25,403 bases of DNA. Origin: a virus. Position 1 is the first letter of the stretch. Every line of letters begins with the position of its first letter. Positions 7,085-22,967 of the stretch are shown piece by piece. The translations under genes were made by a program, and so were the position numbers. The notes beneath the pieces were generated by a model. The model did no database searches. It was not told where the DNA came from and saw only the letters and a list, made by a program, of their open reading frames with translations. The stretch covers positions 1 to 25,403 of IMG/VR virus record IMGVR_UViG_3300029319_000455. One strand, given 5' to 3'.

Positions 7085-7335
7085 TAGAACGGAGCTTCTG
7101 ATGACTCTTTTTTGACAAAAGGTTTTATTGTTATTTGTATCTGGGTACTGCCTTTTTGTGTAGTGCTATGCCAGAGAGATATATCAACTGGCTCACCAGC
7201 TTTCAAAACTATATCTTCTTTTGGTGTAAAGCCATACTCACTATGAGAGTTTGCAAAACTTTTCCCAGCTGTAGAGTTTATAGCTTCCAATACTTCTTTT
7301 CTTGGAAACAAATATAAATATTGATTTTTACTCAT
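7084..7335 (-). CDS. Small hypothetical protein beside the annealing gene
   Basis: An 83-residue protein with a beta-rich C-terminal half ('IVLKAGEPVDISLWHSTTQ', 'STQIQITIKPFVKK') and a helical N-terminus. The start at 7335 has an AAGGGA site about eight bases upstream, located inside the end of the annealing-protein gene, with which it overlaps by eight bases. The immediate linkage suggests a role in the same recombination or DNA-processing step, for example as an ssDNA-binding accessory, but no SSB signature is visible. Confidence 0.72.
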   Translation of the reverse strand: MSKNQYLYLFPRKEVLEAINSTAGKSFANSHSEYGFTPKEDIVLKAGEPVDISLWHSTTQKGSTQIQITIKPFVKKESSEAPF

Positions 7336-7942
7336 TAAGAAATTTCCCTTCTTTTAGAGATCTCATTTGATCTTCTCTTTGTGTGTAAAGATTTCTAGCT
7401 TTGTTTTTGTCACCTTCTGGCAACTTATCTAGCCAATCTTTTTTCTTTGTTACTAGCTCTCCCAGGTGTCCTGGATGTTTACAATTGTCCAGATCTTTTT
7501 CAAAATCTTTAAGACTGTATACATCAGCTAGCTGTTCTTGTTTATTTTTAGCGATATCAATCTCATCTACAGATGCGTACTCTGATCCGCTAAAACCTAG
7601 ATTTGCCAGGCATCTACCGATGCAGCTGGTTTCACAATTCTCAATATGAGATGTTGCATTGACCATGCCTTTGTGCTGCCATTCCTCTGCATATCCCGTA
7701 CTGATAATTTTATTATCAATTGATATTGATCCTTTGAATACAACTCTTCTGGTCATTTTATCACCTAATGATATAGGCTCATCTGTAACCATATCAGTTA
7801 TAATCTCAGCGTCAGGAAAAAATTTTCTAAAAACCTGGAGTCTGTAAGCTACCTGGCTGTATTGTTTTCCCTTGATATCAATTGAATTTTTTTCAAAATT
7901 TCTATTAAAATGCTCTTGAGCTTGTAATAATTTTTCTTTCAT
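7328..7942 (-). CDS. Erf/Sak-like single-strand annealing recombinase
   Basis: A 204-residue protein. Residues 24-125 show the layout of Rad52-like phage annealing proteins: 'GKQYSQVAYRLQVFRKFFPD' (26-44), a strand pair 'RVVFKGSISIDNKIISTGYAEE', and the hallmark Asn-Cys-Glu-Thr-Ser-x-Ile-Gly-Arg-x-Leu-Ala-x-Leu-Gly-Phe at 102-117, then 'EYASVDEI'. Such proteins coat and anneal complementary ssDNA left by a partner exonuclease. The C-terminal 70 residues are helical and polar. A GGGAG site supports the start. The nuclease gene lies upstream with one small gene between them, the classic exo-annealase pairing. Confidence 0.82.
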   Translation of the reverse strand: MKEKLLQAQEHFNRNFEKNSIDIKGKQYSQVAYRLQVFRKFFPDAEIITDMVTDEPISLGDKMTRRVVFKGSISIDNKIISTGYAEEWQHKGMVNATSHIENCETSCIGRCLANLGFSGSEYASVDEIDIAKNKQEQLADVYSLKDFEKDLDNCKHPGHLGELVTKKKDWLDKLPEGDKNKARNLYTQREDQMRSLKEGKFLNE

Positions 7943-8184
7943 AGTATCTCCCAGAGCCTTTGTAAAAATGTTTTATTTTTTTTCTGATTTAGGAGAGCTG
8001 CAGCTGCTGCTAACCTGGCTGCACATTCAGCCTGGACTTTTTCTTCTCTGGCTTTACGCAGCTGCCTATCCATTTTGACTAATGGAAAGTCAGTCTTTGG
8101 TGGTATGTCATTTGATATTGTCTTTTGCTCTAGCTCTTCGACCTTTTTTTCTAAAAAAGGATTAATGGGTATAATGTTTGTCAT
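7939..8184 (-). CDS. Small hypothetical protein between exonuclease and annealase
   Basis: An 81-residue protein. A Pro/Ile-rich N-terminus ('NIIPINPFLEKKVEELEQK') precedes a long basic Ala-rich helix ('LRKAREEKVQAECAARLAAAAALLNQKK'). It overlaps the exonuclease gene by 23 bases and the annealase gene by four (ATGA-type). The helical tail and location suggest a bridge or loading factor for the recombination pair, but this is inference from position. No motif is recognised. Confidence 0.7.
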   Translation of the reverse strand: MTNIIPINPFLEKKVEELEQKTISNDIPPKTDFPLVKMDRQLRKAREEKVQAECAARLAAAAALLNQKKNKTFLQRLWEIL

Positions 8185-9058
8185 TGTAAAATCTTTTTAC
8201 CTCCGTTATTTCATCTTCGTTATATCCATAATAGTTTATATTATTTAAATCAGCTTCAACATAGTTTTTAGCTACATATTCAACTGTAGTTTTTTGTGAC
8301 AGCTCCAATAGATTTTGTCTTTTTTTAGATTTTGTAAAAAAATTATCTATTGTTTGTTTTTGAGCTTCAACACCAAGCTCCTCATGCTCCAGGCTACTGT
8401 ATATTTTGTAATCTGTAGGAGTTGCATAGACCAGATAGCCTGGCTTCTGTGTTGCTTCTTTATAGAAACAAACTTGATTGACATGGTATGCGTCTGGTGT
8501 TTTTGGAGCAGATATATTTATAAAACTATGTGTTCCATCTTTTTTTGGTTTACTAGATCTACGCTGCCATTTTGTTTTTGCTTCTATAAAAAAATTTTTT
8601 GTTTCCATATCTGTTCTACCAGTATATGGAACTGTAATACCATCAATCCATAGTTCGACATATCTCTCAGAGTTTACTGTTTCTATTTTTTTTATTTCTA
8701 GATCTTTGAGAGCTGCTATGTAATTTGTAATTACTTTAGGTATAGCTTCCAGGTTTACTTCAAACTGTTTCATTTCTTTTTCATCATCAATAAACAATCC
8801 TTTTTGTTTTTGATAGTGATGGATGCCAGCTGCTATAGCTTCATCCTGGGATTGATTAAATAAAAAATATCCATCCCATCCATGTTGAGCAGAATTACCA
8901 GCAATCATTTTTGCATTTGGTTTCCTAGCTCTTCTCCATTCTTGAGTCTTGTAGACATATTCGTACCACCATCCACATAAAGGTTTATTTATTTGAGTTG
9001 GGGATAAGTGATTTAAACCGACATCAAGCCAGCATTTTCCTATTGTTTTAAAATTCAT
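8162..9058 (-). CDS. PD-(D/E)XK exonuclease (RecB/Cas4-like)
   Basis: A 298-residue nuclease. The N-terminus 'LSPTQINKPLCGWWYEYV' (18-35) is the entry motif of phage PDDEXK_1-type nucleases. The core is Gly-Arg-Thr-Asp150-Met-Glu, then Phe-Ile-Glu159-Ala-Lys161-Thr-Lys-Trp, followed by His192-Val-Asn-Gln195-x3-Tyr199. Asp150, Glu159 and Lys161 are the expected catalytic set. With the downstream annealase it would resect double-stranded ends for recombination. A good promoter ends about seven bases before the ATG and there is no ribosome site, so its mRNA may be leaderless. Confidence 0.85.
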   Translation of the reverse strand: MNFKTIGKCWLDVGLNHLSPTQINKPLCGWWYEYVYKTQEWRRARKPNAKMIAGNSAQHGWDGYFLFNQSQDEAIAAGIHHYQKQKGLFIDDEKEMKQFEVNLEAIPKVITNYIAALKDLEIKKIETVNSERYVELWIDGITVPYTGRTDMETKNFFIEAKTKWQRRSSKPKKDGTHSFINISAPKTPDAYHVNQVCFYKEATQKPGYLVYATPTDYKIYSSLEHEELGVEAQKQTIDNFFTKSKKRQNLLELSQKTTVEYVAKNYVEADLNNINYYGYNEDEITEVKRFYNDKHYTH

Positions 9059-10617: not shown

Positions 10618-10749
10618 TTTATTACCTCCGTTTTTGATTTGTTTTAACATCTATAATATATATAGCAATTAATGCTACGATTACAACCCCTGAATAAAAA
10701 AAATTTTTTTATTTTGAAATTAATTATTTTTAGTATAGACATAGATGCT
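10618..10749. promoter_or_regulatory. Divergent control region
   Basis: A 132-base AT-rich gap between divergent operons. Leftward: a TTGTAA (10686-10681 on the minus strand) with an 18-base spacer to TATATA (10662-10657) is a plausible promoter for the leftward genes. Rightward: TATAGA (10734-10739) lies 10 bases before the repressor ATG without a convincing -35. In the middle (10693-10713) is a near-perfect palindrome AAT-A8-T7-ATT, which should bend DNA or act as a weak two-way terminator. Repressor operators are expected here, but I cannot define them. Confidence 0.5.
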
Positions 10750-10947
10750 ATGAAACTAGAACAATACAGAAGGGATAGGAATTTATCATACGCAAAATTA
10801 GCTACACATCTGGGATTAAAAGGCATTAATCCTGGCAGACTCGTACACCGCTGGTGTAAAGGTTCAACACCATCATCAACGAATATGAAAAAAATAGTTA
10901 CAGCTACAGAGGGTAGTGTGCAGCCAAATGATTTCTTCCAAGGATAA
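10750..10947 (+). CDS. Cro/CI-family HTH regulator
   Basis: A 65-residue XRE-type DNA-binding protein. 'LSYAKLATHLGLKGINPGRLV' (12-32) forms the helix-turn-helix (Ala-x3-Leu-Gly then the recognition helix), followed by His-Arg-Trp-x-Lys-Gly and the typical Cro end 'ATEGSVQPNDFF'. Being a single HTH domain without a dimerisation or cleavage domain, it is closer to Cro than to lambda CI. The ATG at 10750 is chosen because the longer frame has a hydrophobic, untypical N-terminus. No ribosome site precedes it. It sits at the divergent promoter region and probably controls it. Confidence 0.8.
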   Translation: MKLEQYRRDRNLSYAKLATHLGLKGINPGRLVHRWCKGSTPSSTNMKKIVTATEGSVQPNDFFQG

Positions 10948-11251
10948 TCCAGACTTTGCTATCTTTTCCTGGAAAGATCCCCAGGAGGATGAAAATGGTT
11001 GGAAAACCTTACGGGAGAGTCATATCGGACTAGCCAGCTGCAAGAGCTGCGGTTGGATTATTGATGAAACTAAAGATTATTATGTGGTAGCTGCCGACCT
11101 GGTTATAGAGAAAAATAGGATTACTGATACTGGTAGAAGGCACAGTATTTATAAATCCTGGCTCTCCAGGTGTGAGAGGATAGAATACAACATTTATGAA
11201 AAACAAATGGAAACTGTTAAAGAAAATACACAAGGATCAAAGAATAGATAG
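10928..11251 (+). CDS. Hypothetical phage protein with CxxC
   Basis: A 107-residue protein from ATG 10928, overlapping the end of the HTH gene by 20 bases. A GTG 12 bases upstream is possible. 'FSWKDPQEDENGWKTLRESHIGLASCKSCGWIIDETKDYYVVAADL' resembles a phage family I remember with a Trp-x-Asp-Pro start, a Gly-Trp and a Val-Val strand, here carrying a Cys38-x2-Cys41 pair. The C-terminus is helical and charged. It lies between the regulator and the replication gene, so early expression is likely. The function is unknown. Confidence 0.68.
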   Translation: MISSKDNPDFAIFSWKDPQEDENGWKTLRESHIGLASCKSCGWIIDETKDYYVVAADLVIEKNRITDTGRRHSIYKSWLSRCERIEYNIYEKQMETVKENTQGSKNR

Positions 11252-11822
11252 TGCTGCTAGATGTGTTTATTTTTTTCTACTTGATAGAGAAAATAACATA
11301 ACTAAAAAATTATTTCCTAGCCATGCCAGGCTAGCTGATGATACTGGATTGCACATTAGATCTGTTCAGAGATCTATTAAACTATTGATTGATTATGATT
11401 ATATATCAAAAATTAAAAAAGGTTATCCAGGCAGAGCATCAGAATATAAAATTAATTACGATCTATCACCCGACAATCTTGTCGTTAATACCCGACAAGC
11501 TGGTCGTTTTTACCCGACACACAAGACACACCAATTAACTAATGAATTAACTAATGAATTAACTATGGATGATAAAGTAAAAAATATATTAGGCAGCATT
11601 ACAAAGAACATGAACCCAAACTACAGAGCTGTAGTTGATGGTAATAAAAAACCATATAATCACCCAGATAGCATTGAAGCTCGAATGATGCGTAAGACCG
11701 ATGACTACAATAAAACTAAAGCCTGGCGAAAACTTTACGATAACCCATCAACCAAAAATAAAGCTATAGCAATTGCCAAGCATTTAGGTATCATTCAGGA
11801 ATATAAAAAAAATGGTAGGTAG
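11196..11822 (+). CDS. Replication initiator-like protein (O/DnaD-like winged helix)
   Basis: A 208-residue protein. Residues 12-88 look like a winged-helix domain of phage replication proteins: 'AARCVYFFLLDRENNITKK', 'FPSHARLADDTGLHIRSVQR' (HTH, 40-59), 'SIKLLIDYDYISKIKKGYPG', then Ser-Glu-Tyr-Lys-Ile. A low-complexity linker (91-124, with Gln-Leu-Thr-Asn-Glu-Leu-Thr repeats) is followed by a helical C-terminal part. The linker DNA carries ordered repeats like those of lambda's origin inside gene O. The start overlaps the previous gene by 56 bases. No helicase gene is present; the C-terminus may recruit the host helicase. Confidence 0.65.
   Translation: MKNKWKLLKKIHKDQRIDSAARCVYFFLLDRENNITKKLFPSHARLADDTGLHIRSVQRSIKLLIDYDYISKIKKGYPGRASEYKINYDLSPDNLVVNTRQAGRFYPTHKTHQLTNELTNELTMDDKVKNILGSITKNMNPNYRAVVDGNKKPYNHPDSIEARMMRKTDDYNKTKAWRKLYDNPSTKNKAIAIAKHLGIIQEYKKNGR
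11468..11520 (+). repeat. Three iterons at 22-bp spacing, candidate origin
   Basis: ACCCGACAA begins at 11468 and 11490, and ACCCGACAC at 11512, exactly 22 bases apart. The first two full 22-base units agree at 18 positions. Within unit 1, CGACAA-TC-TTGTCG is a perfect palindrome; unit 2 has an imperfect version (CGACAAGCTGGTCG). Palindromic iterons at two-helical-turn spacing inside the initiator's own gene are the arrangement of lambda's origin. Function is inferred. Confidence 0.6.
11533..11565 (+). repeat. AT-rich 12-bp direct repeats next to the iterons
   Basis: AATTAACTAATG occurs at 11533 and 11545, with a partial third copy (AATTAACTA) at 11557. The 12-base period is in frame and encodes Leu-Thr-Asn-Glu repeats. 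Directly after the iterons, this AT-rich repeat block has the position of an unwinding element in a replication origin. Confidence 0.6.
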
Positions 11823-12066
11823 ACCAAGTAAAAAGGTTTTTTGCCAAGCCAGAAGAAAATACGATGGGAAACAATGCCAGGCTAAAGGTATTTTATGTAA
11901 AAATGGTCGTTGGATCTGTCGTTATCATGGCGGTAAATCTACTGGAGCTACCTCATTTGAAGGGAAAATAAAAGCGTATAAGAATTTAGTACAGTTCAGA
12001 GGTAAAACAGATGAAGAAATCAAAAGCTACATACGACAAGATCATTCAGAAGCTGCAGCTCGGTAA
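11812..12066 (+). CDS. HGG-motif zinc-binding protein
   Basis: An 84-residue basic protein. Cys11, Cys22, Cys29 and Cys36 with His39 form a probable zinc site, and 'CRYHGGKSTGATSFEGK' is the His-Gly-Gly-x-Ser-x-Gly...Gly-Lys signature seen in small phage and alphaproteobacterial proteins with unknown function, often near terminase genes. It overlaps the initiator gene by 11 bases and the small terminase gene by 56 bases. DNA binding is plausible. Confidence 0.7.
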   Translation: MVGRPSKKVFCQARRKYDGKQCQAKGILCKNGRWICRYHGGKSTGATSFEGKIKAYKNLVQFRGKTDEEIKSYIRQDHSEAAAR

Positions 12067-14936: not shown

Positions 14937-16516
14937 ACGGAAAAGATTTAAAACATCAACTGAGTCAGTTGAAAACAAAAAGGCAAAACTGGGAAAGTCA
15001 TTGGCAAGAGATTGCAGAATATGTTTTACCCAGAAGAGCAGATGTAACAACAACGAGATCCAGGGGAGATAAAAGAACTGAAAAAATTTTCGACTCGACA
15101 GCTCTTAGAGCTTTAGAATTATTCTCATCATCTCTACATGGTATGCTGACAAATCCCGCAACTCCCTGGTTTAGTATGAGATTTAAAGATGAAGAGATAG
15201 CCAGGAATAAAGAAAACAAAGATTGGTTAGAAGCATCAACACAAACGATGTATATGGCTTTTGATAGATCTAATTTTCAACAAGAAGTTCACGAACTTTA
15301 CACAGATCTAATATCATTTGGTACTGGCTGCATGATGGTTGAAGAAGATACAAAAGATTTTATTAGATTTTCAACCAGGCATATAAAAGAAATCTATGTC
15401 CAGGAGAACAATAATAGTGTTGTAGATACTATTCATAGAGAAATCAAAATGACTGCCAGGGGAGCTTTCCAAAGATTTGGAGATAAGCTGCCTAAATCTA
15501 TTTTGAAAAAATCGACAACATATCCACACGATGATGTAACGATCTATCATTGTGTAAGACCTAATGACGAACTCAATCCATTTAAAGCTGATAACAAATC
15601 AATGGAGTTTTCATCTATCTACTATGATGAAGATGGTAATATTATATCTGTTTCTGGATATAATGAGTTTCCATTCGTAGTTCCAAGATATTTAAAATCA
15701 AGTAATGAAGTTTATGGTAGATCACCAGCTATGACAGCTCTTGCTGATATCAAAATGATTAACAAAATGTCAGAAACCACAATCAAAGCTGCACAAAAAA
15801 TGGTAGATCCGCCTTTATTAGTACCAGATGATAGTTTTATGTTACCGATTAGAACACAGCCTGGAGGATTAAACTTCTATAGATCTGGATCAAGAGATAC
15901 TATTACTCCATTATCAATCGGAGCTAACACACCTTTAGGATTGAATATTGAAGAGCAGAGAAGAACTGCAATAAAACAAGCATTTTATGTAGATCAACTA
16001 TTGATGTCACAGAATATTCAGATGACAGCTACTGAAGTTATGCAGCGTAATGAAGAAAAAATGAGATTACTTGCTCCAGTTCTAGGTAGATTACAATCTG
16101 AAATGTTACAGCCTTTGATAAACAGAATTTTTGGTATTCTTTTAAGAAATAAAATTTTACCACCAGCTCCAGAACAGCTGAGAGGTAAAGATATAGATAT
16201 CGAATATGTATCACCGCTAGCAAGATCACAAAAGATGGGAGATCTCCAGGCGATACTTAGAACTTTAGAAATTGTAACTCCACTATCTCAAATGAGTCCA
16301 GTTATGGATTTCATTGATAATGATAAAATGGTAAATCACCTGGCGACAGTATTGGGTGTACCATCCAAAGTTATGAGATCAACGCAAGAAGTGGAGTCAA
16401 TACGACAACAAAGACAAGCAGCTCAACAAGCTGCAGCGGAAGCTCAACAACAAATGCAAGCAGCTGAAGCTGGAGGTAAAGTAGCTCCGCTTGTTAAAGA
16501 GTTAAATCGTGAATAG
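14933..16516 (+). CDS. Portal / head-to-tail connector protein
   Basis: A 527-residue protein of the T7 gp8-like head-tail connecting family. The N-terminal 'WESHWQEIAEYVLPRRADVT' and 'KIFDSTALRALELFSSSLHG' with 'NPATPWFSMRF' are characteristic. The middle contains 'SFGTGCMMVEED' and 'EVYGRSPAMTALADIKMIN' (crown/stem helix), and 'ATEVMQRNEEKMRLLAPVLGRLQSEML' forms the long wing/stem helix. The C-terminus is a Gln/Ala-rich helix. It forms the dodecameric DNA channel at one head vertex. Start ATGA overlap; length normal for the family. Confidence 0.9.
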   Translation: MNGKDLKHQLSQLKTKRQNWESHWQEIAEYVLPRRADVTTTRSRGDKRTEKIFDSTALRALELFSSSLHGMLTNPATPWFSMRFKDEEIARNKENKDWLEASTQTMYMAFDRSNFQQEVHELYTDLISFGTGCMMVEEDTKDFIRFSTRHIKEIYVQENNNSVVDTIHREIKMTARGAFQRFGDKLPKSILKKSTTYPHDDVTIYHCVRPNDELNPFKADNKSMEFSSIYYDEDGNIISVSGYNEFPFVVPRYLKSSNEVYGRSPAMTALADIKMINKMSETTIKAAQKMVDPPLLVPDDSFMLPIRTQPGGLNFYRSGSRDTITPLSIGANTPLGLNIEEQRRTAIKQAFYVDQLLMSQNIQMTATEVMQRNEEKMRLLAPVLGRLQSEMLQPLINRIFGILLRNKILPPAPEQLRGKDIDIEYVSPLARSQKMGDLQAILRTLEIVTPLSQMSPVMDFIDNDKMVNHLATVLGVPSKVMRSTQEVESIRQQRQAAQQAAAEAQQQMQAAEAGGKVAPLVKELNRE

Positions 16517-19448: not shown

Positions 19449-19597
19449 CACAAAAATCAATAAAAGCACCGAAGGGATTTCATTGGATGAAAAGTAAAAA
19501 CGGGTTGAAATTAATGAAACATACTGGAGCATTTAAGAAACATCCTGGAGCATCGCTTACTGCTAAATTTACAGTTCAGAAGCGACATGGCTCTTAA
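19445..19597 (+). CDS. 50-residue basic phage protein
   Basis: A 50-residue protein, 'APKGFHWMKSKNGLKLMKH' followed by 'GASLTAKFTVQKRHG'. It is basic with His and Lys, and resembles another tiny marine-phage protein with a Pro-Lys-Gly-Phe-His-Trp-Met opening. ATGA overlap with the preceding gene and an 11-base overlap with the next. It has no known function; DNA or membrane contact is plausible. Confidence 0.68.
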   Translation: MTQKSIKAPKGFHWMKSKNGLKLMKHTGAFKKHPGASLTAKFTVQKRHGS

Positions 19598-20706: not shown

Positions 20707-22967
20707 TGCCAAGACAGACTGTAGCCTATACAAACTTTACAGCTGGACAGTTATCACCTAGATTAGACGGGAGAACTGATCTTAGTAAATACTATAACGG
20801 AGCAAAACAACTCACAAATTTTACAATACAGCCACATGGCGGAGCTACCAGGCGACCTGGCACAAGATTTATACATGAAGTAAAAAGCAGTTCTGCAGCT
20901 GTAAGACTCATTCCTTTTGAATTTTCTACTGTCCAGACATATATTATGGAGTTTGGCAATCAATATATTAGATTTTACAAAGACAAAGGCATCATAACAG
21001 AATCTGCAAAAGCTATATCTGCAGCTACAAAAGCTAATCCAGGAGTGATTACAGCTAATTCACATGGATATTCTAACGGAGATCATGTCATAATTACAAG
21101 CGTTGGAGGTATGACAGAGCTGAATGGTAAAACATTTATTGTTGCAAATAAAACAACAAATACATTTGAGCTTACTGATGTTGATGGAACAAATGTAAAT
21201 ACAACTAGCTTTACAACATATACATCTGGTGGATCTTGTAACAAGATATTTGAAATAGCATCACCATTTACAACTGCACAGCTTCCAGGCATAAAATTTG
21301 CACAATCTGCAGATATTATGTACCTGGTTCATCCAGAGGTAAGTGTCAGAAAGTTATCCAGAACTGGTCATACTAGCTGGACTCTTGTTGAAGAAGAGTT
21401 TTCACCGATGCCTTTTTTACCAGAAAACACAACTGCAACGCAGCTGCAGACTTCTAGTGTAACTTTAAATGCGTCTGCTACTGTTACAGCAACAAATACT
21501 ACTGGTATAAATGATGGTACTGGATTTACATCAAATGATATTGGCAGACATATAAAACTTGGAACTGCTGGATTTTTAGAAATAACAGCTATTACTAATA
21601 CAACAACTGTTACAGCTACTGTAAAAGAAGCTATTACTGGTCTAAGTATAAATACAAATAGTACAGAATTTTCTTTAGGTTCTTTTTCAGATACGACTGG
21701 ACATCCATCATCTGTTACATTTTTTGAACAAAGACTGGTTTTTGCAGCCACAGCTGTAGAGCCACAGACATTGTTTTTTAGTAAAGTAAATACTTTTAAC
21801 AATTTTCAAATAGGAACAAATGATAGTGATGCTATGGTTTATACAATTGCATCGAATAAAGTAAATGCTATCAGATTTTTGTCTGCACAAAGATCTCTCA
21901 TAGCTGGTACTGTAGGTGGTGAATTTGTTGTATCTGCATCTGGAACTACACAACCTATAACACCAACAAATATACAAATTCAAAGACAAACATCCTACGG
22001 AGCTGCAAACATAGATGCTGTCCAGATTGCAAATGTAACTATGTTTTTACAAAGAGCTAAAAGAAAAATCAGAGAACTAACATATTCTTTTGATTTTGAT
22101 AGCTATGTAGCTCCTGATATGACTATCCTGGCTGAGAATGTTACAGAGTCTGGGGTTACAGAGCTGTCTTATCAGCAAGAACCAGACAGTATTTTATGGG
22201 GTGTAAGAACTGATGGTAAATTGATTGGTCTAACCTATCAAAGACCAGAAGAGGTAGTTGGCTGGCATATACACGAACTTGGCGGATCTTTTGGATCTGA
22301 TAGCTTTGGTCATGTTGAAAGTATAGCCACAATACCAGGAGATGCTGATGAAGATGATCTCTATCTAGTAGTTAAAAGAACTGTAAATGGATCTACCAGA
22401 AGATATGTAGAATATCTGACTGACTATGATTTTGGCGATAGTATTAGCGATGCTTTTTTCATTGATAGTGGTTTGCTATACTCTGGTAGTGCAGTCACAA
22501 CTATTTCTGGACTAGATCATCTTGAAGGACAATCTGTGTCAATTCTAGCTGACGGAGCTACTCATCCAGATAAAACTGTATCTGGTGGATCTATAACACT
22601 TGAAAGATCTGCTACAAAAGTCCAGGTTGGGTTGTCTTATACGAGCTTACTACAAACTATGAGGGTAGAAGCTGGAGCTGCAGAAGGTGTAGCTCAAGGT
22701 CAAACAAAAAGAATACACGAAGTTACAGTAAGATTATTAGAGTCTGTGGGTGTAGAGATAGGTAGTAAGATTACAAATATGGAAAGAATACCTTTTAGAT
22801 CAAGTGCTGATGATATGGACACAGCTCTGCAGCCATTTACGGGTGACAAACAAGTAGAATTTAGAGGAGATTTTGAAACAGATGGACATATCTTTGTAAG
22901 GCAAACACAGCCTTTACCACTCAATATTATTGGGATATATCCAAGAGTAACAACTAATGAAGGATAA
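20706..22967 (+). CDS. Tail nozzle / tubular protein B-like protein
   Basis: A 753-residue protein. The N-terminus 'NFTAGQLSPRLDGRTDLSKYYNGAKQLTNF' then 'PHGGATRRPGTRFI' is the signature of podovirus nozzle or stabilisation proteins. Residues 104-180 hold a small inserted domain ('ANSHGYSNGDHVIITSVGGM', 'NGKTFIVANKTTNTFELTD', 'TSGGSC') resembling the E1-FCCH-like fold seen in other phage tail proteins. Later come a propeller-like part ('FFEQRLVFAATAVEPQTLFF') and 'RKIRELTYSFDFDSY'. It forms the tail tube tip through which DNA leaves. A large late gene in the expected place. Confidence 0.85.
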   Translation: MPRQTVAYTNFTAGQLSPRLDGRTDLSKYYNGAKQLTNFTIQPHGGATRRPGTRFIHEVKSSSAAVRLIPFEFSTVQTYIMEFGNQYIRFYKDKGIITESAKAISAATKANPGVITANSHGYSNGDHVIITSVGGMTELNGKTFIVANKTTNTFELTDVDGTNVNTTSFTTYTSGGSCNKIFEIASPFTTAQLPGIKFAQSADIMYLVHPEVSVRKLSRTGHTSWTLVEEEFSPMPFLPENTTATQLQTSSVTLNASATVTATNTTGINDGTGFTSNDIGRHIKLGTAGFLEITAITNTTTVTATVKEAITGLSINTNSTEFSLGSFSDTTGHPSSVTFFEQRLVFAATAVEPQTLFFSKVNTFNNFQIGTNDSDAMVYTIASNKVNAIRFLSAQRSLIAGTVGGEFVVSASGTTQPITPTNIQIQRQTSYGAANIDAVQIANVTMFLQRAKRKIRELTYSFDFDSYVAPDMTILAENVTESGVTELSYQQEPDSILWGVRTDGKLIGLTYQRPEEVVGWHIHELGGSFGSDSFGHVESIATIPGDADEDDLYLVVKRTVNGSTRRYVEYLTDYDFGDSISDAFFIDSGLLYSGSAVTTISGLDHLEGQSVSILADGATHPDKTVSGGSITLERSATKVQVGLSYTSLLQTMRVEAGAAEGVAQGQTKRIHEVTVRLLESVGVEIGSKITNMERIPFRSSADDMDTALQPFTGDKQVEFRGDFETDGHIFVRQTQPLPLNIIGIYPRVTTNEG

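Follow-up and report, generated by a model that had tools for sequence, protein, structure and literature searches.

Phased iterons and an adjoining AT-rich array within an early gene of an HTVC010P-related marine phage point to a lambda-type replication origin

The window analyzed here is a viral DNA record of 25,403 bases and, judged by its relatives, probably represents part of a genome of ~35 kb. On sequence grounds the phage is a marine relative of HTVC010P, which infects SAR11, an abundant bacterium of the ocean, and its portal protein is ~54-60% identical to the portals of HTVC010P-type pelagiphage isolates. Its host we infer from these relatives only; a search of bacterial genome contigs returned no confirmed relative and therefore no evidence of a host or a prophage. 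The early region shows a lambda-like gene order of regulator, small gene and initiator. The first rightward gene (10750-10947, plus strand) encodes a Cro-like HTH protein (PF01381, E-value of 0.002, under the curated cut-off), and the initiator gene (11196-11822, plus strand) encodes a protein of 208 residues. A short gap at 10650-10750 separates divergent early operons, with the Cro-like gene opening the rightward side, and this layout resembles a lambdoid control region. Among the divergent leftward genes, both on the minus strand, are those for a possible single-strand annealing protein (7328-7942; phrog_11717, 2.6e-23, function unknown) and a possible Cas4- or exonuclease-like nuclease (8162-9058; phrog_1706, a weak match at 0.0011). 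The cultured phage Skadi-1 carries an annotated 'ss-annealing protein' within a comparable early module. Directly after the initiator, and before the small-terminase gene that starts at 12011, lies a gene for a small Cys/His-containing protein with the motif HGGKSTG (11812-12066), which has weak PHROG matches of unknown function and matches no Pfam family. GC skew was dropped as an origin indicator because in this window it tracks gene orientation and is uninformative.

The AlphaFold2 model of the initiator (mean pLDDT 71.8) predicts an N-terminal winged helix, a disordered linker and a helical C-terminal domain (residues 126-205; 11571-11810, plus strand) that we propose as the replisome-recruiting part. 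The recognition helix spans residues 54-66 in the model, with most of it (codons 54-63) encoded at 11355-11384 on the plus strand. The segment with pLDDT below 50, residues 92-123, corresponds to bases 11469-11564 and matches the DNA element described below almost to the base, in agreement with an earlier sequence-only reading that had placed the repeats inside the linker. The protein matches the helix-turn-helix family PF13730 (5.8e-10) and PHROG families annotated as replication initiation or O-like (best 3.5e-10), with O-like matches at 1.6e-6 and 3.9e-6 resting largely on the winged helix. A profile of the window initiator family missed lambda O itself, the sequence link not being significant, and a profile search of PDB sequences gave nothing useful. 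Foldseek comparison of the model with the PDB returned generic winged helices, none at E<=0.001, and comparison with viral models ranked a putative protein O (phage Min27) 14th, amid HTH proteins. The predicted structure finds its matches through a generic winged helix, and the evidence falls short of assigning the protein to the lambda O family proper. In the scanned window proteins, no replication gene other than the initiator was recognized and no lambda-P/DnaC-like loader or DnaB was detected.

Within the linker-coding segment the sequence ACCCGACA occurs at 11468, 11490 and 11512, exactly 22 bp apart as previously noticed, and is absent elsewhere in the window on either strand. All three units lie on the plus strand. 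The first iteron, ACCCGACAATCTTGTCGTTAAT (11468-11489), contains the dyad CGACAA-TC-TTGTCG at 11471-11484, an inverted repeat whose 6-bp arms match perfectly across a 2-bp spacer; it is the palindrome that had been reported for this unit. The second, ACCCGACAAGCTGGTCGTTTTT (11490-11511), carries the dyad CGAC-N6-GTCG at 11493-11506. The third (11512-11532) is degenerate, retaining the left half ACCCGACA only, followed by CACAAGACACACC. The lag-22 segment score of 22 was the highest of all lags from 13 to 60 across the 25.4-kb window, and the next three repeat scores (16-17) all had lags that are multiples of 3. These next strongest repeats, at 19510-19553, 16405-16465 and 20994-21062, have lags of 21 and 42, consistent with protein repeats. 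Synonymous recoding of the gene did not match the lag-22 score in any of 20,000 trials (maximum 17), and none of 2,000 recodings reached it at any of the lags from 16 to 44 not divisible by 3.

The iterons are followed by an AT-rich array of 12-bp direct repeats, CAATTAACTAATGAATTAACTAATGAATTAACTA (11532-11565, plus strand), a candidate unwinding element. The repeat unit AATTAACTAATG, expected from the sequence-only reading, was found in 2.8 copies at 11533-11565; the one inaccuracy in that reading was the distance from the third ACCCGACA, which is 13 bases (11520-11532) and not 12. Taken by itself, the array is only moderately unusual in the window sequence, as 115 of 5,000 recodings scored as high; it becomes decisive across relatives, via constraint at synonymous sites. 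Among 13 divergent sequences that keep an LTN or FTN motif, the codons of residues 113-122 were 100% identical in same-residue comparisons, where codon usage would give 48%; for comparison, winged-helix codons were 46% identical and 43% was expected. The array is therefore conserved as DNA and not just as protein. In clades that lack an array of the LTN/FTN type, the 12-bp periodicity persists with different letters. The duplex stability of the array is among the lowest 2% of 36-bp windows, yet it is not the least stable stretch of the gene; stability thus weakly supports a role as the unwinding element.

Relatives were collected by TerL and initiator searches of viral contigs, which yielded 82 distinct initiator sequences, with the pieces of split genes counted. 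Fifty-eight of these were at least 190 residues long, and grouping at 90% nucleotide identity left 25 representatives. The best lag over the whole gene was 22 bp in 21 of the 25. One relative (L029, gene at 1858-2451) has a 33-bp spacing in the linker, three helical turns rather than two, and another (L044) is borderline, with lag 22 scoring 12 against 13 for its best lag. In L122 and L136 the units are degenerate and the 22-bp register can be followed by eye only, with no clear regular spacing found by computation. The iteron sequence itself changes completely between clades, with GACAGATTTGTC, GGTTCAGAATTGAGCC, ACACGCCACAATTG, GATCAGCACTGATC and others taking the place of the window motif. 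Within the 22-bp register, complementarity between the arms is highest at a single phase (0.48), with 0.40 at the adjacent phase and 0.13-0.34 at the others. An initiator split into two ORFs, one for the winged helix and one for the C-terminal domain, was found in L047-L061 and L147. These split-gene relatives still carry repeats spaced by 22 bp or nearly so (GGAA...TTCC), located where the first ORF ends; in L147 a 22-bp-spaced ATGACACTTTTGGT repeat is found at the end of this ORF or past it. The spacing and the phase of the dyads are therefore retained while the linker peptide and the iterons differ by clade, as anticipated for an origin. The opposite outcome, in which relatives would keep the linker amino acids and lose the DNA repeats, was not what we found, the array being synonymously constrained.

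To relate the protein to its sites we compared iteron distance with recognition-helix distance (codons 54-63) in 23 sequences. With the C-terminal domain and the remainder of the winged helix controlled for, the partial Mantel correlation was r=0.54 (permutation p=0.0002), although some effect of shared ancestry is left in this test. Some of the remaining winged-helix sequence lies nearer to the iterons than the recognition helix does, yet this remainder showed no independent correlation with them (r=0.05, p=0.31), a result that speaks against linkage as the sole cause. The top single columns for co-variation were residues 55 and 57 in the helix, followed by residue 72 near the wing. The pair L015 and L025 illustrates the pattern: their C-terminal domains are 96% shared, their helices 40%, and their iteron classes differ. 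The specificity of the initiator appears to be matched to its own iterons, as judged by this statistical co-variation.

A winged-helix early gene of ~230 codons, annotated as a 'putative transcriptional regulator' or as hypothetical, is present in 19 pelagiphage isolate records; examples are Lederberg_38, HTVC010P AGE60327 and Skadi1_17. Direct tblastn queries with the window protein and with three of its relatives did not hit any cultured pelagiphage, and the link was reached through gene order and Lederberg_38. The cultured-phage gene matches the profile of the window initiator family weakly, with full-sequence scores of 8-15 bits, and matches PHROG initiator families with a best value of 4.7e-7 (Skadi-1). 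Among ten cultured-phage genes examined, six had 22 bp as their best lag; it ranked second in Lederberg (best 54) and HTVC034P (best 21) and third in HTVC204P, and the HTVC203P gene gave no repeat signal. For HTVC010P alone the repeat signal reached only p=0.04. Perfect dyads were found in the genes of HTVC024P, HTVC100P and Greip (TAGCCGT-TTT-ACGGCTA) and of HTVC204P (TAGCTC-ATTAA-GAGCTA). Compared with the window initiator, the cultured HTVC010P-type gene has about two repeats rather than three, lacks the LTNE array and is distant in sequence. The extension of the origin pattern to cultured pelagiphages is supportive and falls short of proof. Skadi-1 also encodes, outside its repeat-bearing gene, a DnaA C-terminal DNA-binding domain (gene 28, L154:8797-9309; PF08299, 2.3e-16).

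The arrangement in the window parallels that of lambda, in which the origin likewise lies within the initiator gene O and dyad-symmetric iterons have an AT-rich stretch after them on the corresponding side. As in the lambdoid design, several dyad copies spaced by about two helical turns are positioned between the DNA-binding and C-terminal domains, and an AT-rich element, here of only moderately low stability, adjoins them. The sequence-only reading had called this a lambdoid origin; the description holds for the design, with its iterons, AT-rich array and linker position, rather than for a demonstrated homology to lambda O. The lambda origin has an AT-rich stretch of 38 bp (PMC3349717) and four 18-bp iterons with starts 20, 24 and 23 bp apart, whereas the window has three iterons at exactly 22 bp and an AT-rich part built as a 12-bp direct-repeat array. 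The window also differs in that no P-like partner was recognized, and some of its relatives have a split initiator gene. RepA-type iteron plasmid origins combine iterons phased at about two helical turns with AT-rich direct repeats beside the initiator gene; in the window, by comparison, the iterons lie inside the coding sequence and are dyad-symmetric. In phage SPP1, gp38 binds direct repeats of oriL within gene 38, beside an AT-rich unwinding element (PMC6316719), so that there, too, the initiator gene holds its own origin repeats and an adjoining AT-rich element. SPP1 differs in that it has oriR as a further origin and encodes a loader, gp39, and a helicase, gp40; none of these was recognized in the window, whose 25.4 kb contain the iteron motif at a single place.

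Could the repeats be a by-product of a repetitive linker peptide, with no DNA element involved? The AT-rich array does encode (LTNE)n, with a period that is a multiple of 3. However, 22 is not a multiple of 3, so the three iterons are read in three frames and specify unrelated peptides, and the protein is therefore not their cause. Together with the failure of synonymous recodings to reproduce the iterons, the frozen synonymous sites of the array across relatives and the position of the L147 repeats at or past the end of the winged-helix ORF, this means that the peptide explanation is already contradicted, and we assign it a negligible probability. Some phages have their pac sites inside or close to the small-terminase gene, and here that gene begins ~450 bp downstream of the repeats, which could accordingly be a packaging site for the small terminase. 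Such a site would not account for the co-variation of the iterons with the recognition helix of the gene that hosts them, and the homologous gene of HTVC010P, Lederberg and Skadi, repeats included, does not neighbour the large terminase; a packaging function is very improbable.

The iterons might instead be operators, with the protein acting as a transcription regulator that binds inside its own gene and controls early transcription. Winged-helix proteins are often regulators, the homologues in isolates are annotated as such, and a published account takes the transcriptional regulators of HTVC010P-type phages in this sense, as tools for hijacking host transcription (PMC10504331). Against this, the sites lie ~270 nt inside the gene and form regular phased arrays beside a synonymously frozen AT-rich array that would be needless for an operator, and the family matches point to initiators. 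We consider a purely regulatory role unlikely, while autoregulation may occur as a side effect of iteron binding.

Considering these results, we propose that 11468-11565 is very probably a lambda-type replication origin nested in its own initiator gene; binding, melting and helicase recruitment are the inferred steps of this reading. By analogy with lambda and SPP1, winged-helix dimers would bind the three dyad-symmetric iterons. With iterons at every two helical turns (22 bp), the bound dimers would lie on one face of the DNA and could form an O-some-like complex, and the strain it exerts would open the adjoining AT-rich 12-bp array. The helical C-terminal domain would then recruit the host replicative helicase, either directly or via a partner yet unrecognized, and the host polymerase would copy the phage genome. 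The possible nuclease and annealing proteins may later support recombination and the formation of concatemers. Ten records, a few of which may be incomplete, yielded no gene for a DnaC-type protein (PF01695), DnaB (PF03796) or DNA polymerase A, as expected if the host replisome is used. Helicase loading, for which no loader was recognized, is the main gap in the proposed mechanism.

HTVC010P-type phages have been described as ranking second in abundance among the known pelagiphage groups (PMC12753301). No DNA polymerase is encoded by these phages, for which one study has proposed a helicase loader and replication of a rolling-circle-like kind (PMC10504331). Our literature search, which did not cover the main 2021 HTVC010P-type genome paper, found no mention of iterons and pelagiphages together. 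If correct, the origin reading would show where replication begins in this group and which protein starts it, would give a new label to a gene present in 19 cultured-phage records, and would supply a natural data set tying winged-helix residues to DNA sites. The similar, weaker pattern in cultured SAR11 phages makes this reading testable. We raise, as a tentative generalization that may well not hold, that a diverse marine phage group, cultured phages of the HTVC010P type included, shares an initiator-embedded origin with swappable helix/iteron pairs. In this view a small number of residues in the helix would dictate the iteron sequence and thereby define replication-specificity groups among otherwise similar phages, and the initiator would load the host helicase without a phage loader.
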